21,262 bases of DNA. Source: a virus. The DNA lies in the IMG/VR virus record IMGVR_UViG_3300045284_000388, positions 1 to 21,262 of that record; one strand, given 5' to 3'. Numbering within the stretch: position 1 is the stretch's first letter; each line of letters opens with the position of its first letter. The notes under the pieces were generated by a model. That model was not told the origin of the DNA. It searched no databases and worked only from the letters and a program-made list of their open reading frames with translations. Of the stretch, positions 2,435 through 21,262 are shown in pieces. A program made the translations under genes and the position numbers.

Positions 2435-4177
2435 ATGCCTGACCCCAATACGATTCCGTTCAAGGAGGCCGACGGGAACGGTCATTACCGGAGCAAGCAG
2501 CTGCCGCAGGACCGGGGCGAGTTTCTGGAGGCTCTGGGGTTGCCCGAGTTTGCCGGGGATGTGGTCAGTGCCAGTGGGGGCGGGACGGCGGGTGGCGAGG
2601 TGACGACGTTCTGGGGCACGGATGGGCATACGATCAAGGCCGCAACTCAGACGGGGTTGGCTAAGCTGTCGGCGGGAGTGCTCTCGGCGGTGCCCGCTCC
2701 CAGCGGGCAGGTCGTGGGAACTACGGATGTGCAGACGTTGACCAATAAGACGCTGGACAATGCGACTTACACGGGAACGGTTATCGGCATTGATAAGTTT
2801 GATGTCGGCCTGGGCAACGTCGATAACACGAGCGACGTAAACAAGCCGTTGAGTAATGCGGATGTGGCAGCTTTAGCTGCCAAGGAGGACAAACCGAGTA
2901 AGGGCATCGCGAATGGTTATGCGGGCCTCGATACGATTGGGAAGGTGCCCCTGGCTCAGCTGCCGGACGCCATAATCGGTGCGAGCAGGTATCAAGGGAC
3001 CTGGAATGCGGCGATCAATAACCCAACGATACCGCCCGCGGCTCCGGCGAACAACGGGTATTACTATAGTGTTTCGACCAGCGGTTCCACGAACATTGAT
3101 GGGATCAGTACCTGGGCGATTGGGGACACGATTATTTCTAATGGGACGATTTGGCAGAAGATCCCGGTGGCCAATGCGGTGCAAAGTGTTAATGGGAAGC
3201 AGGGCATCGTGGTGGTCAATAAGAACGATGTTGGGCTGGGGAATGTTGATAACACGAGTGATGCGACCAAAAACAGTGCCGCAGGCACTCTGACGAACAA
3301 GACGATCAACGGGGCGAATAATACGATCTTGGTGCGGTTGAATACCCCGGATGTGACCGGCAGTTTGCCGGTGGCGAATCTGGATGGAGGATCGGGGGCG
3401 GGGCCGACAACGTTTTGGAGGGGTGATGGGCATTGGGTCAGTCCGACCGGAGCTGGGGATGTGCAGGGGCCGGGGAGCTCAGTGACCAATGATATTGCGG
3501 TCTTCAGTGGGACCACGGGGAAGATTATTGCCACTAGCGGGAAGCTGATCAGTGATGTGGTGGTTGGGCCCGCTGCTTCGACGGATGGCCATATCGTGCA
3601 GTTCAATGGATCGACCGGGAAGGTATTGAAGGATGGTTTGGTGGCGCCAACCGGGACGATTGTGGGGACCACGGATGCCCAGATACTTAGCAACAAGCAG
3701 TTTAGTTATGGGACGGTTTATCGACCCCGGGGGGTGATCTATTGCAATCCTGAGGCTTTTATTAGCTCAGGGACGGCGGAGCAAACAGCACAGGCGTATG
3801 TTATCCCGGTGGGAGTATTTGGCAAAGCAGGGGATGCGGTAAAAATCAAGTGGATTGGAGTGGATACCGGAGCAACTGGAGCCAAAACCAAAAGGGTGAA
3901 GGTCAACAATGTTGTCATAAGCACGCCCGCAGGCGCCGGGGGCACTCTGCCGAATTATGTGATCGAAGCGTACCTTCAACGGTATAGCCACGCTACTTTT
4001 TTGAGAACGACTGTTTCGACCATGTTTGATGACGGAACGGCTAAGATTGCCACGGTTGATACTCAGTCTGCGACCGTGGATTTTGCGGCAACAATTCCAA
4101 TAGCTATTTCGGTACAGGCGTCAGCTGGTAATTGCACCATCTATAGCATGACCGTTGAGGCCGTACCCGCGCCGTGA
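2435..4177 (+). CDS. Tail fibre / receptor-binding protein
   Basis: A 580-residue, Gly/Thr/Ser/Asn-rich beta protein with the repeats typical of phage fibres. The motif DVGLGNVDNTSD occurs at about residues 123-134 and again from about 265. TLTNKT-type repeats occur three times (VQTLTNKTLDN, AGTLTNKTING, AQILSNKQFS), and TTFWGTDGH / TTFWRGDGH is also duplicated. Residues about 343-400 hold the DVQGPGSSVTNDIAVF type of shaft repeat. The last 140 residues form a separate beta-rich domain that probably caps the trimer and binds the host surface. A GGAG ribosome site at 2425-2428 sits 6 bases before the start. Lying upstream of the lysis-type genes and of the large terminase is unusual. Fibre identity is well supported; receptor unknown. 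Confidence 0.85.
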   Translation: MPDPNTIPFKEADGNGHYRSKQLPQDRGEFLEALGLPEFAGDVVSASGGGTAGGEVTTFWGTDGHTIKAATQTGLAKLSAGVLSAVPAPSGQVVGTTDVQTLTNKTLDNATYTGTVIGIDKFDVGLGNVDNTSDVNKPLSNADVAALAAKEDKPSKGIANGYAGLDTIGKVPLAQLPDAIIGASRYQGTWNAAINNPTIPPAAPANNGYYYSVSTSGSTNIDGISTWAIGDTIISNGTIWQKIPVANAVQSVNGKQGIVVVNKNDVGLGNVDNTSDATKNSAAGTLTNKTINGANNTILVRLNTPDVTGSLPVANLDGGSGAGPTTFWRGDGHWVSPTGAGDVQGPGSSVTNDIAVFSGTTGKIIATSGKLISDVVVGPAASTDGHIVQFNGSTGKVLKDGLVAPTGTIVGTTDAQILSNKQFSYGTVYRPRGVIYCNPEAFISSGTAEQTAQAYVIPVGVFGKAGDAVKIKWIGVDTGATGAKTKRVKVNNVVISTPAGAGGTLPNYVIEAYLQRYSHATFLRTTVSTMFDDGTAKIATVDTQSATVDFAATIPIAISVQASAGNCTIYSMTVEAVPAP

Positions 4178-5237: not shown

Positions 5238-5639
5238 ATGATCCGGATACTAGTTATTTTAATGGCGGCGCTCGCTGCTTCAGCGAGGGCGGACACCTAT
5301 ATGTTCGTGTTGAATCGATTCGGCGGGATCGAGGTCAAGGAGCAGGGCGAAGCGGGGGAGGTGCGGTTTTTTCAGGAGAACAAGCAAGGCGACGTGTTTA
5401 CATCGAGAGTGCGAACGATCAGGGGCTACACACCTACGGGGGTGCAGTTTCTAGTCACCAAGTTAGACAAGCCGGTGATTCACGACAAGAACCGGAGGAT
5501 TAATAGCGGTGAGTGGAAGTTGCAGATCATTGGGACAGGGCCGGCGTTTAATGCGATGCGGGCCAGGGTGCCGGTGTTGGCGGATTTTGCGGCGAGTGGC
5601 GAGGAGATGACTTTTTACGGAGACAAGACTGATGGCTAA
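5238..5639 (+). CDS. Exported small protein of unknown function
   Basis: A 133-residue protein with a clear Sec signal peptide: MIR, a hydrophobic core (residues 4-14) and an ARA cleavage site after about residue 18. The mature part is a mixed alpha/beta polar domain with no cysteine and no recognised motif. It starts 5 bases after the lysin-like gene and overlaps the next gene by 8 bases, so it is probably co-expressed with the lysis genes. A role in the periplasm during lysis is possible; it lacks the lipobox of an outer-membrane spanin and the transmembrane anchor of an inner-membrane spanin. Not recognised. Confidence 0.6.
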   Translation: MIRILVILMAALAASARADTYMFVLNRFGGIEVKEQGEAGEVRFFQENKQGDVFTSRVRTIRGYTPTGVQFLVTKLDKPVIHDKNRRINSGEWKLQIIGTGPAFNAMRARVPVLADFAASGEEMTFYGDKTDG

Positions 5640-5937
5640 GCCGATTGCCAGGTATAGACGGAGAGGGTACACGTGGGATGCGCTGCAGTTCGATGGGGCG
5701 AATGCGGCGGACGTGATCGCGTTTGTGGGAGGCAGCGATTATGCCCGGTTGGTGGGCGGGGATATCGTGCTGAGCCTGCAGGGTGCGGATGTGCAGAGCC
5801 AGAAGCTGGAGGTGTTTCCGGGCCAATGGGTGCTGATACCGAAGAGGGGCGGGCCGTTTAATGTCGTGAGTGATGGGGAGTTCAATATCGTTTTCGAGGA
5901 GGACACGGGAGGACCGGCGGAGGTGGAACCGTTGTGA
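5632..5937 (+). CDS. PGDYG-like small phage protein (copy 1)
   Basis: A 101-residue protein with the layout of the small phage domain typified by VEAVQWTG...PGDWI...F..YE (PGDYG-type): here WDALQFDG (15-22), an FVGG helix-end (31-34), PGQWVLIP (63-70) and DGEFNIVFEE (81-90). It is a paralogue of the protein at 6378-6830, sharing the QFDG, FxGGxDY, GQWV and GEF blocks in the same order. Function of the family is unknown. A GGAG site precedes ATG 5632, and the gene overlaps the exported protein's end by 8 bases. Confidence 0.6.
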   Translation: MAKPIARYRRRGYTWDALQFDGANAADVIAFVGGSDYARLVGGDIVLSLQGADVQSQKLEVFPGQWVLIPKRGGPFNVVSDGEFNIVFEEDTGGPAEVEPL

Positions 5938-6377: not shown

Positions 6378-6830
6378 ATGGCTGAGGAACCAGTAGTAAA
6401 AGAAGGAGAGGCGGCGCCGCCGTTTGAAGGCAAAAAGTATAAGGAGCGGGTGCTGACCGTGGAGGCGGTGCAGTTCGATGGGGAGAACGGGGAGGATGTG
6501 GTGTCGTTTGCGGGCGGCGAGGACTATGGGACGACTACGGGTAAGATTGTGGTCCTGACTCCGGGGGGCAAAGATCCGCGGGGCGGGAAGATTAAAGTGG
6601 AGCGGGGGCAATGGGTGAGCAAATCCAGGACCGGGACGGTGGTGGTCAATGAGGGCGAGTTTGCGGCGAAGTTTGTCAATGAGGACGGAAGTGATCTTGA
6701 GCCGTTGCCACCGGCAAATCAGCCGCAGCCAGTGGCCGAGGATAAGTTGGTCTATCAACCGGGATTTGCGCCGCCGCCGAAGGAAGGCGAGGAGCCCAAG
6801 CCGGTGGAAGCGGAGCAACAACCTGCTTGA
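6378..6830 (+). CDS. PGDYG-like phage protein (copy 2, extended)
   Basis: A 150-residue protein with a polar N-terminal extension, then the same domain as the protein at 5632: VEAVQFDG (28-35), FAGGEDYG (44-51), a glycine-rich beta hairpin, GQWV (77-80) and NEGEFAAKFV (91-100). Residues 105-150 form a Pro/Glu-rich tail (PLPPANQPQP..., PPPKEGEEPKPVE) that looks disordered. A GAAAGG site lies upstream of ATG 6378, and its TGA overlaps the large-terminase start (TGATG). The two copies have diverged beyond easy nucleotide similarity, so the duplication is old or the copies were acquired separately. Confidence 0.6.
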   Translation: MAEEPVVKEGEAAPPFEGKKYKERVLTVEAVQFDGENGEDVVSFAGGEDYGTTTGKIVVLTPGGKDPRGGKIKVERGQWVSKSRTGTVVVNEGEFAAKFVNEDGSDLEPLPPANQPQPVAEDKLVYQPGFAPPPKEGEEPKPVEAEQQPA

Positions 6831-8488
6831 TGGACGCTGAATTTACACGACTGGCAGACGCCGGGAAGGTGGAGGCCCTGGCCCGGCTGAATGAGCTGAG
6901 GGCCGAGCAGGAGCGTCTGCGTCGTGTAAGACAGCTGCGGCAGGAATACGGGATAAACTTTTATCGGCCCCATGCCAAGCAGGACAGGTTCCATAGCGCG
7001 GGGCATAAGGTTGGCCGATACGTTAGAACGGGAAATCGCGGGGGAAAGACGAAGTGCGGGGCCGCGGAGGATGTGGCGTGGTGTATTGGGGGACGGACGT
7101 GGTACCGCAATTCCTTTGATGTGCTTGACGGAGATCGGAGGGTGGTTCGCCGTCACGTTGGGACGCAGGGTCACGAGCTTGTGACCAAGGGGATTCCCGC
7201 ACATCCGGTGAAGGGTTTGTTGCTAGTGAATGACTGGGACAAGGCCACCGAGATTTTCACGAATCGGCAGGGGTCGTATGAGAACTGGGGTGAGTTGTTT
7301 AAGCTGATTCCCAAGGAGGCGGTGGGCAAGCCGCATGTCAGTCGGGGAGGCCATGTGGACCAGATTCCAATTAAGCGTTTGAGCGAATTCGGGGGTGGAG
7401 AGTCCGTGCTCTACGTAGACACTGTGGAGTCCTATAAGCACGCGAACATGAGCGCGGAGTCCTCGTATTGGGACTTCTTCCACCTTGACGAACCCTGCCC
7501 GAGGCCCATGTTTGTCGCCCACAAGCGTGGGCTGGTGGACCGGAACGGTAAGTTCTGGGTCAATTGCACTCCACTTAGCGAAATGTGGATCAACGACGAG
7601 TTCGTGCCTCCAGATCGGTATGTAGTCGAGTCAGCTCCTGATGGCCTTGAATTTAACAAATCGGCCGACGGAGGAGGGCGATTTATGATCACCTGGAGCA
7701 TTTATGATAACCCGTACAACTCGAAGGAGGCCATTGCCGAATTTGAGTCGGGCCTTAACCGTGAAGAGCGGGAGTGCCGGTTGCACGGGCTTCCGCTCAA
7801 CATGGCCGGGCTGATCTACAAGGAGTTTGTGTATGATTTGCACGTGCTGTGCGATCCGCCGGCGGGATGGGACGACTATGCCAGGCCGCCCAGAAATTAC
7901 ACGGTCCGTGTATGGTGGGACTACCATATTAGGCTGCCGCAGGCGGTGCTCTTTTTCGCTACGGATCCGAAGGGCCGGGTTTTCGTGTTTGATGAGCTGT
8001 ATAGCGATAATCTGCTGGATCCGGTGGCCAAGGCGATTGTCGCCAAGACCAAGGGGTATTTCGTGGCGGATTATGAGATTGATAAGTTGGCGGTGATTCC
8101 ACACCCGGTAACTCAGGAGAGCATTATCGATGAACTGGCGAAATATGACCTGTACTTTGAGCCCGCGACCAAGGATCTGGCGCTGGGTATTAATAAGGTG
8201 CGAGAGAGGCTCAGCGAGCGTGATCCTCAGGGGATGCCGACAATCTTTTTTAGTCCGGGTCTGGCGCAGACTCTGTTCGAATTTACGCACTATGTGTATG
8301 ACCCGAACAAGAATACGCCGGTAGACGAGCACAACCATATGATGGAGAACCTCTACCGAGCCGTTTTGAATGGGTTGGCGTATATCGAGCCCCCGGACGA
8401 TGCGGATTATGTCAGGCGGCCATTTACGATTCGGTTGGAGCAGAACCTTTTCGATCTGCAACCGGACTTAGCGAAGGATTTGTTATGA
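6830..8488 (+). CDS. terL: Terminase large subunit
   Basis: A 552-residue packaging motor. The ATPase half has a Walker A (TGNRGGKT, residues 67-74), a Walker B (WDFFHLDE, 214-221) and a coupling motif (NCTP, 245-248). The nuclease half shows the RuvC/RNase H-like acidic residues at WWDYH (D364) and FDEL (E389), with a C-terminal DEHNHMMENLYRAV segment in place of the usual DH..DALRY helix. It cuts concatemeric DNA and pumps it through the portal using ATP. ATG 6830 is chosen over TTG 6827 because it overlaps the previous TGA (TGATG). Residues 1-40 form a helical, charged N-terminal extension. Its stop overlaps the start of the HNH gene by 4 bases. Confidence 0.92.
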   Translation: MDAEFTRLADAGKVEALARLNELRAEQERLRRVRQLRQEYGINFYRPHAKQDRFHSAGHKVGRYVRTGNRGGKTKCGAAEDVAWCIGGRTWYRNSFDVLDGDRRVVRRHVGTQGHELVTKGIPAHPVKGLLLVNDWDKATEIFTNRQGSYENWGELFKLIPKEAVGKPHVSRGGHVDQIPIKRLSEFGGGESVLYVDTVESYKHANMSAESSYWDFFHLDEPCPRPMFVAHKRGLVDRNGKFWVNCTPLSEMWINDEFVPPDRYVVESAPDGLEFNKSADGGGRFMITWSIYDNPYNSKEAIAEFESGLNREERECRLHGLPLNMAGLIYKEFVYDLHVLCDPPAGWDDYARPPRNYTVRVWWDYHIRLPQAVLFFATDPKGRVFVFDELYSDNLLDPVAKAIVAKTKGYFVADYEIDKLAVIPHPVTQESIIDELAKYDLYFEPATKDLALGINKVRERLSERDPQGMPTIFFSPGLAQTLFEFTHYVYDPNKNTPVDEHNHMMENLYRAVLNGLAYIEPPDDADYVRRPFTIRLEQNLFDLQPDLAKDLL

Positions 8489-8922
8489 CAAACAAACCTG
8501 AATGGTGGTCCCGATTTTGGGATAAAGTGGATATCAGCGGTGATTGTTGGAACTGGACGTCTGCAGTCGATGAACGGGGATATCCTAGATTTAGTTTAGA
8601 GGGGCGAAATAGACGGGCAATTAGGGTAATTTATGAGCTAAAACATGGTCCGATTCCGCCAAAAATGGAGATTTGCCATACTTGTGACAATCCTGGTTGT
8701 GTCAATCCGGAACATCTATTTTTAGGTACGCACGAAGATAATATGGTGGATTCGGCCAAAAAAGGCAGATCACTAAAAGTGTTAACTAAGCAGCTAGTGG
8801 CTGAGATTGTTAAGGCCAAAGGAACACAAAAAGGGGTAGCTAAGAAATTTGGCATATCTCAGGCTATGGTTTCATTTATAAAGAGCGGAGCCAGACACCA
8901 AACCGTGGAGGTAATACCTTGA
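8485..8922 (+). CDS. HNH endonuclease with C-terminal HTH
   Basis: A 145-residue protein. Residues 64-86 carry the HNH_3 signature: CHTCDNPGCVNPEHLFLGT followed by DN, with C64/C67/C72-type zinc or structural cysteines and H65, N74 and H77 as the HNH core. Upstream WNW and a YPRFSL strand fit the same fold. Residues about 98-135 (LVAEIVKAKG, VAKKFGISQAMVSFIKSG) form a helix-turn-helix for DNA binding. This architecture is typical of free-standing homing endonucleases. The base composition is visibly more AT-rich, with A/T-ending codons, than terminase and portal on either side, suggesting recent insertion. It overlaps both neighbours by 4 bases. HNH proteins beside terminase can also assist DNA packaging (as in HK97), so a packaging role is possible. 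Confidence 0.85.
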   Translation: MTNKPEWWSRFWDKVDISGDCWNWTSAVDERGYPRFSLEGRNRRAIRVIYELKHGPIPPKMEICHTCDNPGCVNPEHLFLGTHEDNMVDSAKKGRSLKVLTKQLVAEIVKAKGTQKGVAKKFGISQAMVSFIKSGARHQTVEVIP

Positions 8923-10859
8923 CTCAGGATGTGATCGATGAGCTGAGCAAGGAGTCAGGGGAGTTGTCCGACTTTCATAAGGACATGCTCGATCATGTCA
9001 TGGGGCTCGTGAAGGGCAGCCGCACCCAGATGTGCAAGAGCTATCAGGATTGGGACAATCAGCAGATGATCTATAAGGCCGAGCGGTTGCCCGATAAAAA
9101 TGATGTCGAGCAGTCGCTGAGGGACAAGCCGGTCAAGATGGTGGTGCCGACCACCTTTGCGCAGGTGATGACGTTCACAAGTTTCCTTTTTTTGCTCTAT
9201 ACGCAGAATCGGACGTTTTATGAGCTCGTGCCCACGGGGGACGAGGACTACGGGACGAAGTATCGGGACAGCGAGCAGATCCTGGAGAGGGACACGAGGG
9301 CCAATCAATGGAATATGCTGCTTTTTCAGCATCTGCTCGATACCGCGAGGTTTGGGATGGGGGTGACCGAGTGCTCGTGGACCAGGAAGCTGTCCAGGAT
9401 TTATATACCCCAAGAGCCGACGGTGATAAATATTGCCGGGGTCGAATCCGAGGTGCGCGGAGGGAGCGAGTGGCGCGAGTTCGTTAAGTACGAGGGCAAT
9501 TTGGTGCGTCCAGTGAGTCCGTATCGGTGGTTTCCGGATACGCGGTTTCCGCTGGTCGAGTTCCAGAGGGGGGAATTCTGCGCGAGTGAGGAGGAATATA
9601 GCAAAACGCTGCTTCAGGACTTGGAGGCGTCGGGGGAAGTGGCCGGGGTGGAGTTCATTGCCCCGCTGCCGAGAGCGCTCGATAAGTCGCGGGGAGGGCC
9701 GACCAGGACGACGAGCGCGATCCTGAGCGGGACGAGTGCAAATAACCTCACCACGGGGCCCGTAGGCTCAGGAACGGGCAAGATGGAGGGCAATGTGCTC
9801 GTGACCAAAGTGCAGGTTTGGATCGTCCCGAACAAATATAAGTTTGGACCGAAGGATAAGAAGCTGGGCCCGGAGGAATTTCCGGTTTTGTATCACGTTT
9901 GGTACGCCAATGACAACCGGTTGATCCGGATTGAGCCGGCGTACTGGTGGCACAACGAGTTTGGGTACACGCTGGCCCAGTTTACGCCCGATATGGGGCA
10001 AACGGTGAGCATGGGCCTAGCGGATTTGATCTATCGGTTGCAGGACGTGGTGACGTGGCTCATTAATGCGCGAATTACGGATGTGCGCAGGAATTTGCGG
10101 GGTCGGAACATCGTAAATCCGACGATCATCGATACTAAGACGCTGGATGGGGAGGGCGACATCTATTTAAGGAAAGGCGCCAATGTGGCGATGATGGACC
10201 GGGCGATTCGGCCGCTCGATGTCAACGATGTCACCCGGACCCATTTTCAGGACGCCGATATCCTCAATAAGATCATCCAGACCGTCACGGGGGTGAATGA
10301 TAATGCCATGGGGCAGTATAATAGCGGGCGGAGGAGTGCTTCGGAGGCTCGGGTGGTGACTGCGGGGGCTGCGGGCCGTATGAAGATGCATGGGCAGCTG
10401 ATTTGGGACAGCTCGCTGGGTAGGTTGGGAAGGTTGATGCTGAGTAATGACCGGCAGAGCCTGAGTTTGGAGTCTTTTCAGAGCATCATTGGGGATGACC
10501 CGATGATCGAGCAGCGGTACGGGACGTGGAAGGGCACTCCGGAGGATGTCATATCGGGGGCGGATTACTTTACGTTCGATTCGACCCTGCAGAGCGAGAA
10601 AGGGTTTATCGCGCAGAGCCTGCAGGAGCTGCTGGTGGCGATCATTAACAATCCGATGGCCGCGCAACAGTTGGATTTGGACCCGAGGGCGATGCTGAAC
10701 GAGATTCAGTATCTGCGGGGTGCGGGGAGCGTAAGCAGGTTTTCGCTGAGTAAGCAAGTGGCGAGCGGAGCAGCCCCGCCACTGCCTCCGAGCGTCGTTC
10801 CGGGACCGGGAGGCCAACAGGTGCAACAAGCGCCACCACAGGCCGCAGGAGCGGCGTAG
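8919..10859 (+). CDS. Portal protein
   Basis: A 646-residue protein in the portal position between large terminase and scaffold. It has a helical N-terminus, the conserved run KMVVPTTFAQVMTFTSFLF followed by an acidic ELVPTGDEDYG region, a QWNMLLFQHLLDTARFG helix, and a long helical stem region around VSMGLADLIYRLQDVVTWLINAR. The C-terminal 30 residues are Pro/Gln/Ala-rich and likely flexible. Portals form the dodecameric ring at one capsid vertex through which DNA enters and leaves. The start is TTG 8919, supported by GGAGGT (8907-8912) 6 bases upstream, inside the 3' end of the HNH gene; no earlier in-frame start fits. Length is in the range of podovirus portals. Confidence 0.85.
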   Translation: MTQDVIDELSKESGELSDFHKDMLDHVMGLVKGSRTQMCKSYQDWDNQQMIYKAERLPDKNDVEQSLRDKPVKMVVPTTFAQVMTFTSFLFLLYTQNRTFYELVPTGDEDYGTKYRDSEQILERDTRANQWNMLLFQHLLDTARFGMGVTECSWTRKLSRIYIPQEPTVINIAGVESEVRGGSEWREFVKYEGNLVRPVSPYRWFPDTRFPLVEFQRGEFCASEEEYSKTLLQDLEASGEVAGVEFIAPLPRALDKSRGGPTRTTSAILSGTSANNLTTGPVGSGTGKMEGNVLVTKVQVWIVPNKYKFGPKDKKLGPEEFPVLYHVWYANDNRLIRIEPAYWWHNEFGYTLAQFTPDMGQTVSMGLADLIYRLQDVVTWLINARITDVRRNLRGRNIVNPTIIDTKTLDGEGDIYLRKGANVAMMDRAIRPLDVNDVTRTHFQDADILNKIIQTVTGVNDNAMGQYNSGRRSASEARVVTAGAAGRMKMHGQLIWDSSLGRLGRLMLSNDRQSLSLESFQSIIGDDPMIEQRYGTWKGTPEDVISGADYFTFDSTLQSEKGFIAQSLQELLVAIINNPMAAQQLDLDPRAMLNEIQYLRGAGSVSRFSLSKQVASGAAPPLPPSVVPGPGGQQVQQAPPQAAGAA

Positions 10860-12100: not shown

Positions 12101-13492
12101 ATGCCATTAGGGCTTATTAGTTCAGAACAGGTCGACGATTATTGGTCGCAGAATACCAGACGTAAGATCTTTTACGCGTTCCCCAACGGAACTGCGCCGT
12201 TGACGGGATTGCTTTCCATGAGTGAAAGCGAGTTCACACCCCAGCCCAGTTTTGGGTGGAATGAGGAGCGGTGGCAGGAGACATCGACTACCGCGGCGGT
12301 TAACCCAACCAGCGCGGCGAACAAGGATGGTCCCTTTGCACTGGCAGGGGGCACCACAGCGGCCGGCGACACCAACGGTAAATTTACGGTGGCCCAGTGG
12401 GGGGCTAGCCGGATCTATGTCACCGACTCCAGTATGTTCCAGGTCAACGATAGCGTGAAGCTCTTCGGCGTGGGATTTACCACGGGCGCTGGACCGGCGG
12501 CAACCGGGAGCACCGATGTCTCGGGCCGCATCACGGCGGTGGGCACTGGTTATGTGGAGGTGGAGGCGACGACGGCGTGGACCGGAGTGCTCAATGCAGC
12601 GGTCACCAACGGGAAGCGGATGGTGCTCATCGGGACGGCCTACGCCGAAGGCGCTAGGACGGGCACCGGAGGCATAGTGTTCCCGTACGAGATCCTGAAT
12701 AACACGCAGATCTTCAAGACCCCGTACGAGATGACCAGAACCGCGCTCAAGGAACCGCTGAAGTACGATAAGACCGGGGCCTATAAGGACATGAGCAAGT
12801 CCAATGGCATCAAACACCTGGCAAGTATCGAGAGGGCCGCGTTCTTCGGCGAGCAGGCCAAGACGACCACTGTGGATCCGGACACCGGTCAGACGGTGCC
12901 GCGGAGGTTCACCGGGGGCCTGAGGTGGTTCCTGGATTCGTGGGAGAAAGGAACCAATTATGGACAACCGGATGTCACGGCAGCCGCCGATTGGCGGACA
13001 GCGCCAAACAAACGGGTCATCAAGCTGGGCGCAACGACCATCACCAAGGCTGACTTTAATCTGCTTATGGCCCGGTTGTTCGAGAGGACCAACAACACCA
13101 GTTGGGACAAGTTGTGCCTCTGCGGGCCAGAGTATCTGGCTAAAGTGGCCGACATGTTCGAACGGCAGCTACAGTTCAATAGCCTGCGCGATGAAGGGTT
13201 CGACGGGTTCAACTTCAAGCTGGTTCGGCATTTGAGCAACAGTGGGGAAGTGTTCTATAAGCAGCACCCGCTCTTTACGAGCGCGGAAATGCGCAATAGC
13301 GCCTTCTACGTGGATCTGGGGTATGTGGGGTATCGGCCGCTCAGCGACAGCGACACCGACATTCAGCCGATGATCCAGCTGCCTGACGCGGATAAGCGCA
13401 AGGACCAGTGGTTGACGGAGTGCGGGTTCGAGTACCGGTTCCCGGAAGCCAATATGTATGTGGAGAACCTGGGTGGAATCACCCTTTCATAG
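12101..13492 (+). CDS. Major capsid protein (HK97-fold, DUF5309-like)
   Basis: A 463-residue protein. Residues 95-180 form a beta-rich segment (ASRIYVTDSSMFQVNDSVKL, then GRITAVGTGYVEVEAT) of the type found near the middle of DUF5309-like capsid proteins. NTQIFKTPYE (201-210), a long spine-like helix around NGIKHLASIERAAFFGEQ, and a GLRWFLDSW segment fit the same family. The C-terminal half contains the LMARLFERTNNTSWDKLCLCG segment and ends in a beta-rich YVENLGGITLS. AAGGAAAC precedes ATG 12101. Context (scaffold before, small decoration-like protein after) supports it. HK97 fold is inferred from family resemblance. Confidence 0.82.
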   Translation: MPLGLISSEQVDDYWSQNTRRKIFYAFPNGTAPLTGLLSMSESEFTPQPSFGWNEERWQETSTTAAVNPTSAANKDGPFALAGGTTAAGDTNGKFTVAQWGASRIYVTDSSMFQVNDSVKLFGVGFTTGAGPAATGSTDVSGRITAVGTGYVEVEATTAWTGVLNAAVTNGKRMVLIGTAYAEGARTGTGGIVFPYEILNNTQIFKTPYEMTRTALKEPLKYDKTGAYKDMSKSNGIKHLASIERAAFFGEQAKTTTVDPDTGQTVPRRFTGGLRWFLDSWEKGTNYGQPDVTAAADWRTAPNKRVIKLGATTITKADFNLLMARLFERTNNTSWDKLCLCGPEYLAKVADMFERQLQFNSLRDEGFDGFNFKLVRHLSNSGEVFYKQHPLFTSAEMRNSAFYVDLGYVGYRPLSDSDTDIQPMIQLPDADKRKDQWLTECGFEYRFPEANMYVENLGGITLS

Positions 13493-13867: not shown

Positions 13868-14074
13868 ATGGCTAGTATACCAGGATATGGAGAAGGAGTC
13901 GCCAATTGGACTCCGAGCACCCCGAAGAAATCGAGTGAGAAAGCGGACGAGTTGATGTCCACCGAGGCGAGTGACGCTAAGGATACGATGACCGGCACCA
14001 ACGAGCTGAAACAGTGGGTTGCCGGGAGCGGCACGCCGCCCAGGCCCTATGGCACTCAGGGTAGGAAATTCTAA
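13868..14074 (+). CDS. Hypothetical 68-residue protein
   Basis: A small polar, probably disordered protein (MASIPGYGEGVANWTPSTPKK at the start, ending TPPRPYGTQGRKF). It has one of the best ribosome sites in the window (AAAGGAGA, about 10 bases before ATG 13868), so high expression is likely. It is the last gene before the terminator at 14090-14148. Not recognised. Confidence 0.55.
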   Translation: MASIPGYGEGVANWTPSTPKKSSEKADELMSTEASDAKDTMTGTNELKQWVAGSGTPPRPYGTQGRKF

Positions 14075-14165: not shown

Positions 14166-15212
14166 ATGACCTTACTTGAGCTGCGGAGTGTGATTGCAGG
14201 GTATCTGCAAAAAACGGTCAGTGATTTGGTGGTCAATGGCGTGGATTTGACGTTGTTGGCGCTGAATCAGGTGAGGCGAGATGCCGAGATGTCATACGAT
14301 TTCGAATTCACGAGGAAGCACGTGACGGTGACGATTGACGGGCTGGATGGGGGGACGTTGGATGACGTGATTCAGGAGGGGAGCCCGGTGTGTGAGGCCA
14401 AGACCGTGATTGAGTGCGGGATCTACGATGACAATTGGAATGTGCATCTGGTGGAGTGGACCACGGTGGCGGAGTCGCTGGAACGGCAGCGGCAGATCAA
14501 GCCGGGGTATGGGCCCAGGTATCCGACGGATTACGAGGCGACGACGGGATATTATGAGGTGGGGTTGCAAAGGATCGCGTTCTGCGGGAACGATATCTGG
14601 ATGGTGCCCACGGGACAGAAGGGCAAGCTGTTTGATCTGGAAATCGAGGCGTATGTATTTACGCCGGATTGGAGCGCGGATAGCGACTCGGTGACGGTCG
14701 CGGATGTGCTGGGAATGGATTTTGTCAATGGGCCGTATTGGCCATATGGAGTGTTTAATGAGCGCCAGCTTTACTTGAATCTGCCTAATGGCGGCACGGT
14801 GCCGGGGTCGTCGGCGACGAGTGCGAATCTGAGGGCGATGTGGTATCGGCCCGGCGAGTGGATGATCAGCAGGTCGGAGTTTATTGGGCAAACGCCGCCA
14901 ACGGGAAACTATCAGAGTATGGCGGCGACGAGCATGACGCCCGGTGGACAGTATCAGCCGCATGGACAGTGGCAGGGACTGGGAACGGTGACGATGCAGC
15001 CGGGGAGTGAGGTGACCGGGATTTGGCTCAAGCAGGGCGCGCAGTATTTGCTGTGGGCGGCGATTGTGCAGATCAATCACCTTTGCAAAGAGTTTGTTTT
15101 TCGGCAGGAAGGTAATCTACCGCCTCCTGAGAAATTGGCGGAGGCTGCTTTGGAGAACTTCCGCCAGTGGGATTCATTTAAATATGAGCAGGACCGTCGG
15201 CACGTTTACTAG
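14166..15212 (+). CDS. Putative head-tail adaptor / connector protein
   Basis: A 348-residue protein. The N-terminus (MTLLELRSVIAGYLQK, DLVVNGVDLTLLALNQVRRDAE) is a helical bundle like those of phage adaptors that dock under the portal. A large middle domain is beta-rich (GTLDDVIQEG..., FDLEIEAYVFTPDW), and the last 60 residues return to helix (LLWAAIVQINHLCKEFVF, PEKLAEAALENFRQWDSFK). This helix-beta-helix layout and position after the capsid module fit a P22 gp4-like or similar connector. A GGGG-rich sequence precedes ATG 14166. Assignment is by layout, not by a diagnostic motif. Confidence 0.5.
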   Translation: MTLLELRSVIAGYLQKTVSDLVVNGVDLTLLALNQVRRDAEMSYDFEFTRKHVTVTIDGLDGGTLDDVIQEGSPVCEAKTVIECGIYDDNWNVHLVEWTTVAESLERQRQIKPGYGPRYPTDYEATTGYYEVGLQRIAFCGNDIWMVPTGQKGKLFDLEIEAYVFTPDWSADSDSVTVADVLGMDFVNGPYWPYGVFNERQLYLNLPNGGTVPGSSATSANLRAMWYRPGEWMISRSEFIGQTPPTGNYQSMAATSMTPGGQYQPHGQWQGLGTVTMQPGSEVTGIWLKQGAQYLLWAAIVQINHLCKEFVFRQEGNLPPPEKLAEAALENFRQWDSFKYEQDRRHVY

Positions 15213-15220
15213 AGTGAGCT

Positions 15221-16705
15221 ATGCCAGTTCCGAATTTGAAGAATAAGGGACCGCTGCTGGTTGATAAGCTGCGGGGTTACTTTGACCGGCTGCCGCCATG
15301 GTTGCGGGAGATGATCACGATCAGGGTTGAGAAGCAGAAGGTAGACGCGAAAATTACGGATCTGGACCCTGCGGCGCTGGAGAGCGAGCTGAAGCAGGAA
15401 GTTACGGACGAGAAGCTGAGGACGAATCGTTACTTAGGAGACGGCGAAGCCGGCTCGGGCAATGACATGTCCATGCTTCCTGCCAGTAATGTTAGCGAGA
15501 TTGTGCTGACCAATACCGGGCAGGTTGCGAATGTCACGGAGACCGTCAGCCAAACCGAGACGGGTTTGGTCGAGGGTCCGCCGTTGCAGGACGGTCAGAG
15601 TGAGCAGGTGGGCGATTTGTGGGTCACGAAGAAGGTTGAGGCGCCGACTTTCGACGACCAAATTTTCCAGTTGACGCGTGAGGATCTGATTCCCCCTGAG
15701 TTCAAGGCGCTAGTGCCTGAGAAATTGGAAGCGCATACAGTTGATGGGACTGCTGCGCTTCCAACTCTGGGGAGCGGGGAGACCGTCCGACGAGAAGAGC
15801 AGAAGAAGTCTGGGGTCAAGACAGTTAGTGTACAGAGCAGGAATTTAACGAGTACGCCGGTAATTACGGGGTCGAAGATGGACCCGCAGTGGAATGGGTC
15901 GATCCTGAATTTGGAGCAGAAGATCGTTCCGGCGAACACGGTGATCACGCAGCCCTTTGGGACGACGGATGCTAGTTTGAAGCCGATTGATGGGGTGAAT
16001 TCGTTGCAGGAGACGTGGAAAGATCCAGATGCGACGTTTCCATCGGTCTTTGTCAGGAAGTTTGATGCGGAGTTGCAGAATGAGGTTCAGACGTATCAGA
16101 CGATAGTACAGCAGGGGAATGCGTATGTTCCGACGAGCTTGGATTTGGACTACGAGGAAAGGTATATTGATTCGGTCCATACATTGCGGAGGGTCGATAA
16201 GGTTTTTGGTGCGATGCCTCCGCAGTTCAATACGTATACGACCAGCATGTTTACGTTTCCGGGGATATTGACCGGGTTGAGTTTTACGTTGGTGCCGCTG
16301 GCGGCGGTGAATAGGAGCGAGCCGCAATGGACGGCGGGGGTCAGGGCTAGTTTTAGTGCGCCGACGAGTCTTAGAAATCAGGTGGACTTTTTTCCGTTTG
16401 GAACGAATCCTGCGTCACTGATTCCTACACTGTATACGTGGGCACAGACGGACATTATTTTTAAGGGCATTTCGTATAGTATCAATGTGCAGAATGTGTT
16501 GTGTGATTCGTGGAGTTTGATTGGAGTGAAGTATACCGGGGATGCGTATTATGGAGGCACTACTGATAAGTTTTCGATTAGTGCAACAACTCCGAGTGCG
16601 ACGGCGTATACACTGGCGATTGGGACGGAGGTGCCTATTTCGTGTGTGCTGGAGCAGTATAAGAGGTTTTGGGTTAGAAAAATTTCACTGGTGGTATTGA
16701 GATGA
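15221..16705 (+). CDS. Putative virion structural protein, 494 residues
   Basis: A large protein with a basic helical N-terminus (residues 1-60), a Thr/Val/Glu-rich extended middle (about 85-260) and a beta-rich C-terminal half (300-494) with WTAGVRASFSAPTSLRNQ and aromatic strands. It begins 8 bases after the adaptor stop. Size, beta content and place suggest a tail hub, nozzle or stopper component. It does not resemble a tape measure (no long coiled coil). No family recognised. Its stop overlaps the next start (ATGA). Confidence 0.5.
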   Translation: MPVPNLKNKGPLLVDKLRGYFDRLPPWLREMITIRVEKQKVDAKITDLDPAALESELKQEVTDEKLRTNRYLGDGEAGSGNDMSMLPASNVSEIVLTNTGQVANVTETVSQTETGLVEGPPLQDGQSEQVGDLWVTKKVEAPTFDDQIFQLTREDLIPPEFKALVPEKLEAHTVDGTAALPTLGSGETVRREEQKKSGVKTVSVQSRNLTSTPVITGSKMDPQWNGSILNLEQKIVPANTVITQPFGTTDASLKPIDGVNSLQETWKDPDATFPSVFVRKFDAELQNEVQTYQTIVQQGNAYVPTSLDLDYEERYIDSVHTLRRVDKVFGAMPPQFNTYTTSMFTFPGILTGLSFTLVPLAAVNRSEPQWTAGVRASFSAPTSLRNQVDFFPFGTNPASLIPTLYTWAQTDIIFKGISYSINVQNVLCDSWSLIGVKYTGDAYYGGTTDKFSISATTPSATAYTLAIGTEVPISCVLEQYKRFWVRKISLVVLR

Positions 16706-16896
16706 GTCTTTTTGATGAGAGCGATACTAAGTTGAGTGCGGACATGGGGGGAAAGCAGATACGGGCACTGGGGCATAGGGACAAGTTGCCTGAGACGCCG
16801 GACTTTACACAGTGGGGCGCGCCGGTGAGGAAGGGCAGTCCATTTTTGTTGGATGATTTTAGTAGTGGCGCTCCAGCAAATACAACTAAACCGTAA
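16702..16896 (+). CDS. Hypothetical 64-residue protein
   Basis: A small polar protein, start ATG 16702 overlapping the previous stop by 4 bases. It reads MSLFDESDTKLSADMGGKQ at the N-terminus and ends in a flexible APANTTKP tail. The overlap and codon use support a real gene. Function unknown; probably virion-associated by position. Confidence 0.5.
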   Translation: MSLFDESDTKLSADMGGKQIRALGHRDKLPETPDFTQWGAPVRKGSPFLLDDFSSGAPANTTKP

Positions 16897-16905
16897 GGAG
16901 AATTT

Positions 16906-17451
16906 ATGGCTACAGATCCATTTGGAACGAACATGTTTGGCGGCGCAACTTCGATACCTGGAGGAACGTCGGCGGCGACTGCGGCGACACCAGCAGCATC
17001 GACAGCGTATAAGTATTTGGGACAAGGATGGAATGATCCACTGGCCCAGCAGATGTACCAGAAGTATGCGTTTGGTGGAAAATTGAGTCCGGGTGCTATA
17101 AGTCGGTTGTCTGGACCAGCTACGCAAGCGTATGTGGGAAGTGGAAATTATCACAATCCGATGGACCCGAAGGAGTGGGGCGGAAGTGTAAGGGGTGCGG
17201 AAGTGGATGCGATGAAGGCCGCGTACTTGGCGGCCGGCGGTCAGGGGACCTATGACCAGCTGGCGGCGACCAACCCAAAGGCGGTGGGCTGGCCCACGGA
17301 TGCGGCGGGGAATCCGTTGGGGCGGATGAATCCTACGACGGGTGCGACTGAAATGCCGAATGCAGCGACTGGGGCATGGGCACCTGGGAGCGGTGGAAGT
17401 GGGAGTACGAATACGTTGGCACCTGAAATTTTGCAGAAAATGTGGAGGTAA
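16906..17451 (+). CDS. Hypothetical Gly/Ala-rich protein, 181 residues
   Basis: An Ala/Gly/Thr-rich protein with a low-complexity N-terminus (residues 14-34, TSAATAATPAAS) and a more ordered centre (YLGQGWNDPLAQQMYQKYAFG, GAEVDAMKAAYLAAGGQ). A strong AAGGAG site precedes ATG 16906. Seven such genes follow the 494-residue protein. Not recognised; composition suggests a virion internal or appendage protein. Confidence 0.5.
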   Translation: MATDPFGTNMFGGATSIPGGTSAATAATPAASTAYKYLGQGWNDPLAQQMYQKYAFGGKLSPGAISRLSGPATQAYVGSGNYHNPMDPKEWGGSVRGAEVDAMKAAYLAAGGQGTYDQLAATNPKAVGWPTDAAGNPLGRMNPTTGATEMPNAATGAWAPGSGGSGSTNTLAPEILQKMWR

Positions 17452-17455
17452 TGTT

Positions 17456-17710
17456 ATGGCTAATGAAGAACCAAATCCGTTCGAGTTGCAACCGACGACG
17501 CCGCCGAAACAGCCACCGTGGGGTGGGATGCCGGTAATAGCACCGCAGGGAGGTGCAGCAGAGGAAGGTGGAAGTTATTTCGCGTTGAGTCCACAGGCGA
17601 TGCAAATGATGTGGGCACCACCAGAACAACAGGCTCAGGTGCAACCGTTGACGCAGGTGCAGCCGTTGGTGCAACCACAACAGCCGTTGCCGCCACTACC
17701 ACCAGCGTGA
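17456..17710 (+). CDS. Hypothetical Pro/Gln-rich protein, 84 residues
   Basis: An intrinsically disordered protein rich in P, Q, G and E. The C-terminal third repeats a VQPL unit (VQPLTQVQPLVQPQQPL) and ends PPLPPA. The frame is open upstream, but ATG 17456 is preferred because the GGAGG-like GTGGAGGTAATG lies just before it and it follows the previous stop by 4 bases. Not recognised; could be a flexible linker or scaffold-like piece. Confidence 0.45.
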   Translation: MANEEPNPFELQPTTPPKQPPWGGMPVIAPQGGAAEEGGSYFALSPQAMQMMWAPPEQQAQVQPLTQVQPLVQPQQPLPPLPPA

Positions 17711-17711
17711 T

Positions 17712-17969
17712 ATGCCAAACTATACTGTGAGAACGTGGAGACCGTCCATTGATGCGGCGACGCCGGAGGAGGCCGCGCAGCAGTCGATTGTGGTTCCGGC
17801 AATGGACGGCGATGAATTTTATGTGATGGAGAATGATCCATCTGGATCGACGCATTATGTTGCGGGGTCGGCTGCGGTGCTGGGTGGGTCGTATCCGACG
17901 CCGACAAATGTTTATAGGGGAGCGGATTTCACGCCGGTTGTGCCGTCGGCAACTCAACTGAAGGTTTAA
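17712..17969 (+). CDS. Hypothetical 85-residue protein
   Basis: A small protein with an ordered N-terminal beta-alpha segment (NYTVRTWRPSIDAATPEEAAQQ) and a beta-rich middle (DGDEFYVMEND, THYVAGSA). The first 20 residues resemble small interaction domains in general but no family could be named. It begins 1 base after the previous stop, so translation is probably coupled. Confidence 0.45.
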   Translation: MPNYTVRTWRPSIDAATPEEAAQQSIVVPAMDGDEFYVMENDPSGSTHYVAGSAAVLGGSYPTPTNVYRGADFTPVVPSATQLKV

Positions 17970-17973
17970 AGTT

Positions 17974-18663
17974 ATGGCATTTGGAACTTACGCTTCAACG
18001 GGGGGAGTAGGGACTATGGTTGGTACTCAAGCTCCGCAGAAATTGTTTGGGGATTTACCGGCAAACTCATTTCCTGGTGCGGTGACGCCGAATACAACGG
18101 TGGAGATGCCAAGTTATGTGGATTGGGATTCGGTACAGGCGGCGCAGAATGCACAGAAGGCGCAAAGTAGGGCAAGTTGGGCGAGGGCTGCGGCAGCAAA
18201 TGCGGCGGGACAGCGGCAAACTAATCAAGATGCGGAGGGAGCAAAACTTAGGTCGGCGTTCGATGAGATGTACGGGCCGCAGTTGCAGAACGCGTATAAT
18301 GATCAAATGGTTTCGCAGGAGGGCCAGACTTCGGCGATGGGAGTGTATACGCCGAAAAGGCAAGGAAAAACTACGCATCCCATAAATGCATGGTCGAGCA
18401 ACCTGAGTGTAGCAGATGCGGGTAGACCGGGCGCGATGCCAGGGGCTTTTGCTTCACCTGGGGGTGGAGACTATCATACGCCGTACAGATTGGGAGAGGA
18501 AGAGTTACGAAAACGGTTGGATTATATGTGGCGGATGGAAACTGACCCATATATCCGGGCAGCGGGTCAGCTGGGCGGAACGATGAGAGGGGAGTATCCA
18601 ACTGTGGGAGGAAGTAACCCGTCTGCTTGGGCGCGGATGGTTAAAGAACGTGAAGGAGAATAG
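17974..18663 (+). CDS. Hypothetical virion-type protein, 229 residues
   Basis: A protein with a Gly/Thr-rich start, an Ala/Gln/Arg-rich helix (residues about 52-85, VQAAQNAQKAQSRASWARAA) and a helical C-terminal region (EEELRKRLDYMWRMETDPYI). Start ATG 17974 is 4 bases after the previous stop. It belongs to the run of unrecognised genes before the giant protein. A small ejected core protein is possible; inference. Confidence 0.5.
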   Translation: MAFGTYASTGGVGTMVGTQAPQKLFGDLPANSFPGAVTPNTTVEMPSYVDWDSVQAAQNAQKAQSRASWARAAAANAAGQRQTNQDAEGAKLRSAFDEMYGPQLQNAYNDQMVSQEGQTSAMGVYTPKRQGKTTHPINAWSSNLSVADAGRPGAMPGAFASPGGGDYHTPYRLGEEELRKRLDYMWRMETDPYIRAAGQLGGTMRGEYPTVGGSNPSAWARMVKEREGE

Positions 18664-18665
18664 GT

Positions 18666-19751
18666 ATGGCCAGGAGACGAAAAATCGGCGGGGATGACGA
18701 AGGAGGAGATGGCATAGTTGACGCGTACACGCAGGCGTATTTCAAACGGGGACAGCAGGAAGATCCCAGGATGGCGATGGCCATGCAGTTGATGGGATTG
18801 CAGGAAAAGTCACAGCAAGCTAGTGAGGCGAGAGCGCAGGAAGAACGTCAGCAACAGGCGCTGGAACGGTATCAGCAGGGCCAGTTGGGAATTGAGCGGG
18901 AGAAGCTAGGCGTGACCTCTAAAGAGGCAGAGGCGGCGGAAAAGGCGCGTCAGGAGGAGCGTGCATTTCGCGAGGGCGCGACTACGCGGGACATCCAGTA
19001 TAAGATGGATCAGGCCGGGAGGGAGCAGGAGAAAGCTAAAGGGGAACAGGAAAATAAACTTAGGGAGATAAAAGCTGGTGTTTTGAAGCAAACGATAGCG
19101 GCTGGGAGACCGTTGACTCCAATGGAAGAAGCCATGCTGGGCAATATTGATCCTGAATATAAGGACGTTGCCGCTGGAATGAGGGAGCAGGCGCTTGGGG
19201 AGGCGGTAGCGCAAAATCTGGAAAGATTTAGGGGCATGAAGCCAGAGCAGCGCAAGGCGATGCTTCAGAATCCGGTCGAGATGGGAAAGATTGGCGGCAT
19301 CGAAGGGTATAACCGAATCATGGCGCAGTTGGGACCGGAGGCAAATCAGCCAGCCGCTCCGGAAAGAGGCTTTTGGTCGAAGATGTTTAGTGGAACTGGA
19401 AAGCCCACTGCTATTGGGGCTATACCAGAGTTGGCAGATACTGAAAGAGTTATACCGGAATGGCAGCAACCAATAGGTCCGCAAAATGTTGTTTCTGCGC
19501 CCGCTCCAGTAGTTCAGAGGCCACCAACTGCTATCGGCGCTTTGCCAGAATTGACGGAGCCCGAGAGAGTTATACCGGAGTGGCAACAACCAGTTCAGCC
19601 GGGTCTGTCTATTAACGATATTTTAGCGAAGGCGCTGCAAACTAATCAGGCGCAGGCACAGGAGATGCCGTGGCTATATGGTGGGCAGGGTTGGCCGACT
19701 AGTAGGCCGATACCCGGACCAACGCCGCTACCGAGAGAGTTGTTACAGTAA
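18666..19751 (+). CDS. Coiled-coil protein with duplicated motif, putative internal virion protein
   Basis: A 361-residue protein. Residues about 45-160 are dense in E, Q, K, R and A and should form long coiled coils (ARAQEERQQQALERYQQGQL, GREQEKAKGEQENKLREIKAG). Residues 247-269 and 287-309 are a near-identical 23-residue repeat beginning PTAIGA and ending ERVIPEWQQP, 19 of 23 residues the same. The C-terminus is Pro-rich. AAGGAG overlaps the previous gene's end just before ATG 18666. Long helices plus proline linkers upstream of a giant Gly/Ala-rich protein suggest an ejection protein; no family recognised. Confidence 0.5.
   Translation: MARRRKIGGDDEGGDGIVDAYTQAYFKRGQQEDPRMAMAMQLMGLQEKSQQASEARAQEERQQQALERYQQGQLGIEREKLGVTSKEAEAAEKARQEERAFREGATTRDIQYKMDQAGREQEKAKGEQENKLREIKAGVLKQTIAAGRPLTPMEEAMLGNIDPEYKDVAAGMREQALGEAVAQNLERFRGMKPEQRKAMLQNPVEMGKIGGIEGYNRIMAQLGPEANQPAAPERGFWSKMFSGTGKPTAIGAIPELADTERVIPEWQQPIGPQNVVSAPAPVVQRPPTAIGALPELTEPERVIPEWQQPVQPGLSINDILAKALQTNQAQAQEMPWLYGGQGWPTSRPIPGPTPLPRELLQ
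19404..19592 (+). repeat. Intragenic duplicated 69-bp segment
   Basis: The two units span 19404-19472 and 19524-19592, 51 bp apart, within the coiled-coil gene. Protein identity is 19/23, while many codons differ at the third position (for example ATT/ATC, GGG/GGC, GAA/GAG), so the duplication is old and kept at protein level. Confidence 0.75.
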
Positions 19752-19771
19752 AATTAGAAAGGAAGATTACT

Positions 19772-20305
19772 ATGGGTCACGAAATGCGTTATCGGAGAGG
19801 CGTTCCGCTGACTGGAGAGGAACGAGCGGGAGGTGGGCAGGGTGCGGGACGGACTTGGCAGCAGGGAAATATGTATCAACAACAGCCGGGGGCTGGTGGA
19901 TTCGGGATTAATCCGGATGCTGGTGGTCCGCCGGGAGAGAATCAGTGGCGGGCTGGTGGCGGTGGATATGATTTTGGACAGATTTTGCAGGCGTTGATGT
20001 CGCAGTATCAACCGCAAGAAAGTCCGTCGGAGGCATTGATTACCAAGAAAATGCTGCAAGACCCGGTGGGGTATTACAATAAGATGGCGAGTTTGCCATC
20101 GAATGCCCCGGGGTCGTTGAGTCCATTTGCGCCGGGAGGACAGTTTGAAAACGTGCCACGGTTGACGCCGGCGGCACAGCTGGCGAGTCAGGGAAATACT
20201 GCGACGAATCAGTGGGCGCAGATGGGAGGCGTGGAGGGAATGGATCCCGAGGAACTCAAGAGGTTCAATAGGCAAACTGCGCTGAGTCGCAGGACCTACA
20301 TGTAA
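19772..20305 (+). CDS. Hypothetical 177-residue Gly/Gln-rich protein
   Basis: A protein with a long Gly/Gln-rich, probably disordered N-terminal 60 residues (ERAGGGQGAGRTWQQGNMY) and a more ordered part (DFGQILQALMSQYQPQE, ALITKKMLQDPVGYYNKMA). AAAGGAAG lies about 10 bases before ATG 19772. Its TAA (20303-20305) is in the same frame as the following gene and only one codon separates them. Not recognised. Confidence 0.5.
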   Translation: MGHEMRYRRGVPLTGEERAGGGQGAGRTWQQGNMYQQQPGAGGFGINPDAGGPPGENQWRAGGGGYDFGQILQALMSQYQPQESPSEALITKKMLQDPVGYYNKMASLPSNAPGSLSPFAPGGQFENVPRLTPAAQLASQGNTATNQWAQMGGVEGMDPEELKRFNRQTALSRRTYM

Positions 20306-20308
20306 GCC

Positions 20309-21262
20309 GTGCCGCTCGATTATCGTCACGTCAAGGACATGTATGACCAGCTCGCCGAGGCGGGTGCGGTCAGTGAGCCTTTGGCCGACTGGTCAGCGAA
20401 GATGAACCAGGCCACCGGCAGCGAGGACTATTCTGCCGGGATGGACGATAATTGGCTGAAGAGGGCGTCGGTTGGAATCGATAAGCTGCTGGAGATGACG
20501 GGAATTCCGTCGGTCACGGGGGCGGTTGGACGTGGCGCGGGAGAGTTGTTAGGGATTCCGGAAGCGGGGGAGCAGATCGGCCGGGAGTTGCCCAGGAATA
20601 TCGTTGATATCGCGCCGTGGGCGCTAAGCGCGTTTGGTCCGCCGGGAGTTGCGGCGGGAGCGGCATTGTCGAGCGGGTTGAGCGGCGCAAAGGCTTACAC
20701 GGACACCGGGAGCACGGCGGCTGGGGTGATCGCCGGCGGTCTTAACCTGGCAATGCCGGTCGCTGGTGGTTTGGCCAGGAACATAGCGTTGGAGAAGTTG
20801 GGTGCACAGTTGGTTAAGGGGCCGCTGTTGAAGGGCGCGGAGGAAGTTGGGGTGGATCGGCTGCAGCAGTTGGCGGCTGGCGTCGTTCCGAAGATGATGA
20901 ATGAGTATGTGCCGACGACCCTTGGTCAGGCGGTCGGTGGATTCGGGGCTGAGCAGGCGGCGATGACCGGTTTGAACGTGGCGGGAAACGCGGCGCAATC
21001 ACTCTATTCTGGCGAGCCATTCCATTGGGACCCGAGGGAAGAGCTTTTGGGTGGGGTTGCAGGCGCTCTTCCGTTTGCGGGGATGTCGGTCGCCAGGCAC
21101 GGAATGGTCGGGCTGGGTGGAGAGGCAGCCAGGCGGCACATCGAGGAAACCAATACGGCAATCGGACTGACCCGGAAAGCGGAGGACGAGAAGCTGCTGG
21201 CGGACAGAGTCGCGGAGCAGACTTCGGTCGAGCACATACCGGATGTCCTGCAGTCCGAGGAA
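20309..21262 (+). CDS. N-terminal part of a large ejection-type virion protein (incomplete)
   Basis: An open frame with no stop from GTG 20309 to the window end, 318 codons seen. ATG 20339 (residue 11), preceded by AAGGAC, is an alternative start. Residues about 98-160 are hydrophobic and Gly/Ala-rich (APWALSAFGPPGVAAGAALS, AGVIAGGLNLAMPVAGG), as are 200-265; such membrane-active stretches occur in internal core/ejection proteins and in very long multidomain podovirus proteins. The visible end turns charged and helical (TRKAEDEKLLADRVAEQ). No lytic transglycosylase or other catalytic motif is visible in this part. Position at the end of the structural block supports the reading. Confidence 0.6.
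   Translation, partial: MPLDYRHVKDMYDQLAEAGAVSEPLADWSAKMNQATGSEDYSAGMDDNWLKRASVGIDKLLEMTGIPSVTGAVGRGAGELLGIPEAGEQIGRELPRNIVDIAPWALSAFGPPGVAAGAALSSGLSGAKAYTDTGSTAAGVIAGGLNLAMPVAGGLARNIALEKLGAQLVKGPLLKGAEEVGVDRLQQLAAGVVPKMMNEYVPTTLGQAVGGFGAEQAAMTGLNVAGNAAQSLYSGEPFHWDPREELLGGVAGALPFAGMSVARHGMVGLGGEAARRHIEETNTAIGLTRKAEDEKLLADRVAEQTSVEHIPDVLQSEE

Follow-up and report, generated by a model that had tools for sequence, protein, structure and literature searches.

In phages with short tails, the nozzle serves as gate and as docking point. The closest described counterparts of the locus analysed here are the tails of VP1, which we take to be a Vibrio phage, and of Vibrio phage VS-ABTNL-3 (PDB 8zkk, 8zkm). 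They share with our locus homologous portal and capsid proteins and a gene order of portal, scaffold position, capsid, adaptor position and giant last gene. Their layout is known because the 516-residue VS-ABTNL-3 protein at the nozzle position matches the VP1 nozzle (E = 9.5e-149). The tail of SU10 has been described as an adaptor with a beta-propeller nozzle (PMC9509320), and the same account gives the sequence similarity of the SU10 and T7 nozzles as undetectable. For DEV (Schitoviridae), a dodecameric tube and no beta-propeller nozzle is reported below the adaptor (PMC10925440). Ejection proteins are described as mosaic (PMC8954989). Set beside these systems, the new content of our locus is the proposed exchange between the nozzle and another protein, p20; in all other respects the locus is a divergent case of something known. 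Neither p20 nor such an exchange was described in the titles and abstract openings listed by searches of an openly licensed library.

The window, meaning the whole stretch of DNA analysed, is a linear IMG/VR phage record of 21,262 bases, and the genes considered here are all plus-strand genes. A fibre-like gene is followed by the large terminase, portal, scaffold-position protein, capsid, p17-p19, p20-p27 and a truncated p28. The fibre-like gene p04 (2435-4177, +) had PHROG tail matches. The portal protein p13 (8919..10859, +) matched PHROGs 332, 15554 and 1216, PDB chain 8zkk_A ('portal gp5', E = 2.1e-33) and chain 8zkm_K of VP1, and the major capsid protein p16 (12101..13492, +) matched PHROG 1328 (E = 9e-11) and PDB chain 9in6_M, the VP1 major capsid protein (E = 4.4e-17). 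By tblastn, capsid and portal were 23-27% identical to their homologues in Microcystis phage Mel-JY34, Caulobacter phage Kuura, Desulfofustis phage LS06-2018-MD01, Vibrio phage VS-ABTNL-3 and Roseobacter phage CRP-810. Judged by these matches, the portal and capsid proteins are distantly related to their VP1 and VS-ABTNL-3 counterparts, and the best explanation is a phage that has VP1, VS-ABTNL-3 and Kuura as distant relatives. The Fredfastierviridae (PaP2) were the weakest of six references, their portal and capsid families reaching the window at E = 8.1e-9 and 8.6e-7.

Three close IMG/VR contigs were used for comparison, 3300027821_000018 (G001), 3300027821_000004 (G002) and 3300027821_000010 (G003). 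More distant loci came from alignments of the portal (147 relatives, 80 loci among them taken in), the adaptor (33 loci, several sharing a contig) and p28 (5 loci). Iterative profile searches covered the plus-strand ORFs of 106 loci, G001-G003, the window and six reference phages; they returned 79 p19, 43 p20 and 32 nozzle matches, many of them repeats of one contig.

The gene just before the block, p19 (14166..15212, +), is the probable head-tail adaptor, a label that draws on context more than on sequence. Its profile aligned with the adaptor-position proteins of VS-ABTNL-3 and Mel-JY34 at a probability of 78 (hhalign, E = 1.9e-5) and weakly with the SU10 adaptor chain (E = 0.87). Seven of 25 p19 members match a PHROG annotated 'virion structural protein', though the window's own p19 does not, and p19 lies upstream of the nozzle gene in all 27 contigs carrying both. 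No relative appeared among the genome contigs scanned with p19.

Eight packed ORFs, p20-p27, fill positions 15221-20305. The preliminary description had seen no diagnostic motif in them, and library searches agreed: none of the eight reached a Pfam cut-off or matched a PHROG at E = 0.05 (best 0.066), and nothing exceeded the NCBIfam cut-off for p20, p22, p25, p26 and p27, the five block genes scanned. Its account of many products as Gly/Ala/Gln/Pro-rich or coiled-coil stood for composition in five of the eight (p22, p23, p25, p26 and p27, G/A/P/Q fraction 0.39-0.58), coiled coil having been judged by eye only. The fraction is 0.24 in p20, 0.30 in p21 and 0.33 in p24; outside the block, the scaffold-position protein p15 is also rich in these residues (0.41). 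The proposed placement, where podoviruses carry tail and ejection genes, likewise held up, with a podovirus-type portal and capsid and the probable adaptor p19 upstream and a giant PLxRFG-type gene downstream.

Homologues of the block recur in the close contigs with their order mostly kept, G002 having one extra gene. By phmmer (E = 0.01), p20, p22, p25 and p27 have homologues in all three, as does p24, displaced in G001; p21 and p23 have them in G002 and G003, and p26 in G002 only, with a similar-sized gene at the p26 position in G001 and G003. When the window was compared with one chosen close homologue per gene, pN was lower than pS for all eight block genes, with extremes of 0.13/0.60 for p24 and 0.51/0.82 for p26 and the weakest case in p21 (0.41/0.55). 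In the iterative searches, p21-p26 were confined to the window and G001-G003 and p27 gained one match (L130); members of p26 from G001 and G003 and of p21 from G001 had entered the profile seeds by position, so their own matches there are uninformative. Profiles of p17, p19, p20, p22, p25 and p27 compared with reference ORFs below 1300 aa (from 140 selected) gave probabilities of at most 14, and hmmsearch of p21, p23, p24, p26 and p28 against the reference ORFs gave no match.

We then compared p20 (15221..16705, +), a beta-rich protein at the nozzle position, with the VP1-type nozzle. A nozzle profile built from ten relatives recovered the VP1 nozzle, 9nwi and the SU10 chain 7z47_G. Among 66 contigs with p19 (loci of one contig merged), 31 carried only p20, 27 only the nozzle, eight neither and none both, so that p20 and the VP1-type nozzle are mutually exclusive in this set. 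The counts include near-copies, which makes the Fisher value of 1e-11 for the exclusion too strong, and since p20-type phages were abundant in the alignment used to fetch the second contig batch, 31 versus 27 does not indicate prevalence. Of the eight contigs with neither gene, six have at most 518 bases after p19 and L127 ends inside fibre-like genes; the eighth, L054, has both the adaptor and the giant gene, with neither p20 nor a nozzle in between. The p20 family comprises 30 contigs besides the window, near-copies included. In 28 contigs and in the window, the start of p20 is at most about 75 bases from where p19 ends, the gap being wider in G002, where a 62-aa ORF intervenes, and in L106, where 3.6 kb with fibre-like genes lie between.

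A quick portal tree was built from 87 rows (23 p20, 29 nozzle and 35 unassigned, many of the latter short contigs). In it, 21 of the 23 p20 rows fell in a 38-row group without any nozzle row (SH-aLRT 90); L130 and L136 stood elsewhere. Support on this tree is by SH-aLRT only, and long-branch warnings were raised. The p20/nozzle split required two changes when unassigned rows were ignored, and p20 required 14 when these were counted as a state. The map of G002 looks complete because its ends carry a 53-base terminal repeat; besides head genes and the giant gene, its only other large structural candidate, by eye, is a fibre-like gene. In G001-G003 the nozzle profile found nothing better than E = 1.7, and a piece of the G002 p20 only at E = 7.3. 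The VS-ABTNL-3-seeded profile still finds a nozzle in contigs whose portals are 33-39% identical to that of the window, the VS-ABTNL-3 portal itself being at 22%. Two proteins escaped the same profile, the CRP-810 'stabilization protein' and the LS06 candidate. The absence of a VP1-type nozzle from the window clade is thus well supported by the sequence searches, and the absence of any nozzle whatever less well.

The preliminary description had suggested a possibly novel machine, and sensitive searches of p20 against nozzle and N4 profiles returned no match to either. The p20 (23-row) and nozzle (10-row) alignments gave an hhalign probability of 0.04; p20 thus showed no similarity to this nozzle profile, which also reaches the SU10 chain. 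Neither p19 nor p20 showed profile similarity to 11 proteins of the Schitoviridae phage N4 (best probability 0.5 for p20), a set in which the N4 counterpart of DEV gp75 was not singled out. No PHROG matched any of 23 aligned p20 members, and tblastn with p20 found nothing in annotated phages at E = 10. An AlphaFold model from 23 sequences (pLDDT 77.6, pTM 0.45) is nearly all beta, a chain of small beta domains, with ten-residue blocks from residue 331 onward averaging 78-95; with 5 close sequences only, the pLDDT was 32. Against solved PDB chains the model had no significant match (best E = 0.35). In BFVD it matched A0A6J5RCY2, an uncharacterised protein of an uncultured phage, at E = 5e-14 but with a TM-score of 0.34, and in VIA the best Z of 5.3 was at noise level, with nozzle chains absent among the matches listed. 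These fold results are compatible with a new fold and with a known one. An internal repeat in p20, suspected by eye, was unsupported (best probability 2.1).

What the analysis shows is the gene order, the homologies, the mutual exclusion of p20 and the VP1-type nozzle, and the PLxRFG domain in p28 homologues; for all block proteins, we infer function, oligomeric state and presence in the virion. Taken together, we judge it a little more probable than its negation that this block serves a podovirus-like phage as its distal tail and ejection cassette, with p20 replacing the nozzle. The adaptor p19 would bind the portal, p20 would dock on the adaptor at the site taken by the nozzle in relatives, and a p20 oligomer of serial small beta domains would form the end of the tail channel, which portal, p19 and p20 would make up together. 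The evolutionary part of this reading is tentative, at somewhat under an even chance: an uncultivated podovirus-like clade may have exchanged the canonical nozzle for the non-homologous, serial-beta-domain p20 while keeping portal, capsid and adaptor. A nozzle-less tail is plausible, and less novel, given the precedent of DEV. If true, the exchange would be a natural, phylogenetically bracketed swap in which an unchanged kind of adaptor carries an unrelated protein, and it would illustrate the modularity of the tail; p20 would represent a tail-channel protein of a type new to podoviruses, and its gene family would gain a working name. The analysis also names a concrete pair for structural work, p19 with p20.

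The main rival is that p20 is a receptor-binding tail fibre or spike at the adaptor, the nozzle having disappeared or its function having passed to the adaptor or small proteins. Several features of the family fit such a role: lengths from 313 to 887 aa, C-termini that vary between members, long low-complexity inserts in L130 and L136, and an identity between window and G002 of 90% over residues 6-196 against 59% over residues 181-493. The fibre-like genes between adaptor and p20 in L106 point the same way. A fibre, however, has no need to exclude the nozzle, yet no contig in 66 carries both; the window already has another fibre-like gene in p04, and the tail would be left without an obvious channel protein. 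We consider a fibre role rather unlikely.

Less probable still, p20 may be a true nozzle homologue that has diverged past sequence recognition. Its gene place is that of the nozzle, the exclusion is strict and the p20 model is all beta; moreover, SU10 and T7 offer a precedent for nozzles without detectable sequence similarity (PMC9509320), which makes divergence likelier and the novel reading less probable. Weighing against it are the hhalign probability of p20 versus nozzle and the recognisable nozzles still found at 33-39% portal identity. The fold matches of p20, of which none to a solved chain was significant, include no nozzle. We regard divergence as improbable.

Downstream, p26 (18666..19751, +) is a Q- and charge-rich candidate ejection protein (G/A/P/Q 0.40, D/E/K/R 0.27), with a coiled coil by eye, and p27 (19772..20305, +) is a G/Q/P-rich candidate (G/A/P/Q 0.45) that is probably disordered. 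Both have positional analogues before the giant gene in relatives. The cassette extends past 20305: p28 (20309..21262, +) supplies 318 aa from the start of a giant protein that the contig end truncates, with homologues of 1805, 2306 and 2260 aa. The PLxRFG domain (NCBIfam NF032893), which is a domain of giant phage proteins, sits at the end of these giant homologues, scoring above the cut-off of 100 bits in both that were scanned (105.1 and 117.3), and tblastn gave weak matches to DarB-like and PLxRFG-annotated phage proteins. Among 22 loci where the giant start could be located, 18 have a G/A/P/Q fraction of no less than 0.36 in one or both of the two genes before it, a limit chosen after seeing the values, with near-copies among the loci; the exceptions are L118 and L132-L134. 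For p26 and p27, no Pfam, PHROG or NCBIfam match and no shared sequence with known ejection proteins was detected.

The layout of p26-p28 resembles the ejection sets of T7 and P22, and sequence similarity to either was not found. As in the T7 gp14-gp15-gp16 set, consecutive genes lie behind the tail genes with the giant last; unlike that set, the giant in relatives of the window carries the PLxRFG domain instead. Because p26 and p27 precede a giant whose homologues end in PLxRFG, the three look, by analogy, like an ejection set in a divergent form of a known kind. They would be packed in the head and ejected ahead of the DNA, building a path across the cell envelope.

Gene context supports the tail and ejection reading of the block. 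That p20-p27 are instead head decoration, host-takeover or other late proteins lying there by chance fits their want of library matches and their being known here from genes alone, yet it is very improbable given that relatives preserve the order of genes that runs from the adaptor to the giant PLxRFG gene and that p20 trades places with the nozzle. Where the preliminary description suggested that the tail and ejection machine may be novel, the term suits mainly p20, which has no library match or significant solved-fold match and excludes the VP1-type nozzle among the contigs compared; it fits p26, p27 and the giant less well, as these resemble a known arrangement.

The remaining genes, p21-p25, would be lineage-specific accessory virion proteins. 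They comprise the small protein p21 (16702..16896, +), the G/A/P/Q-rich p22 (16906..17451, +), which ends in LQKMWR, the P/Q-rich p23 (17456..17710, +), the small p24 (17712..17969, +; 75% identical in G003, dN/dS about 0.12) and the G/A/P/Q-rich p25 (17974..18663, +). The best start of p23 is the ATG at 17456 behind GGAGG, versus the mechanical ORF start at 17342. A peptide resembling LSPxVLxKMW is common to p22, p23 and other small genes and was considered a possible docking motif. When a matrix was trained on p22, the score was 20.5 for p23 and 18.9 for a gene that lies between terminase and portal in G003, against a maximum of 18.3 in 200 shuffles; once the M-W columns were removed, p23 scored 10.4, with the null median at 13.0, and the gene of G003 lay outside the best 14. 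A pattern of this type, picked after seeing the sequences, occurred in none of 1162 gene-like ORFs of the wider relatives. At the end of p22, the MWR-stop codons overlap the ribosome-binding site of the next gene.

In the related contig G002, the homologue of p20, the beta-rich protein in the nozzle position, runs across the contig ends (G002:47829-48431 and 2-943). Compared with the window protein, it showed 90% identity over residues 6-196 and 59% over residues 181-493, a split that looks as if the two parts had different histories. In another related contig, G003, the homologue of p19, the probable head-tail adaptor, consisted of two ORFs (L022; G003:13364-14401) separated near 13888-13895, reflecting either a sequencing error or a real break.

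An LSPxVLxKMW-like peptide was observed at the C-terminus of p22 (17400-17451) and internally in p23 (17590-17640). It also formed the C-terminus of an unrelated gene in G002 (G002:1580-2100) and of a G003 gene located between terminase and portal (G003:7980-8061). A rival explanation for this recurrence is overlap with the ribosome-binding site of the next gene. By eye, the two 3' end copies in G002 differed mostly at synonymous positions.

Genes related to p12, labeled HNH-like by eye (window 8485-8922; G002:40549-41010 and 46176-46613), occurred in the terminase-portal interval of the window and G002, and in G002 also before p19. In G001 and G003, other small genes occupied the terminase-portal site. 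A portal relative with 35% identity was carried by a contig (L143) that had been assigned to a Rickettsiales genome bin. The binning may be in error, and this assignment is not host evidence for the window.

Farther upstream, p08 (5632-5937) and p10 (6378-6830) look like paralogues, since both matched the same G002 ORFs; p10 also matched PHROG 1810, whose function is unknown. The very hydrophobic 70-residue product of p03 (2025-2237), possibly a holin, shared 90-94% identity with its counterpart in each of the three close contigs (G001, G002, and G003).
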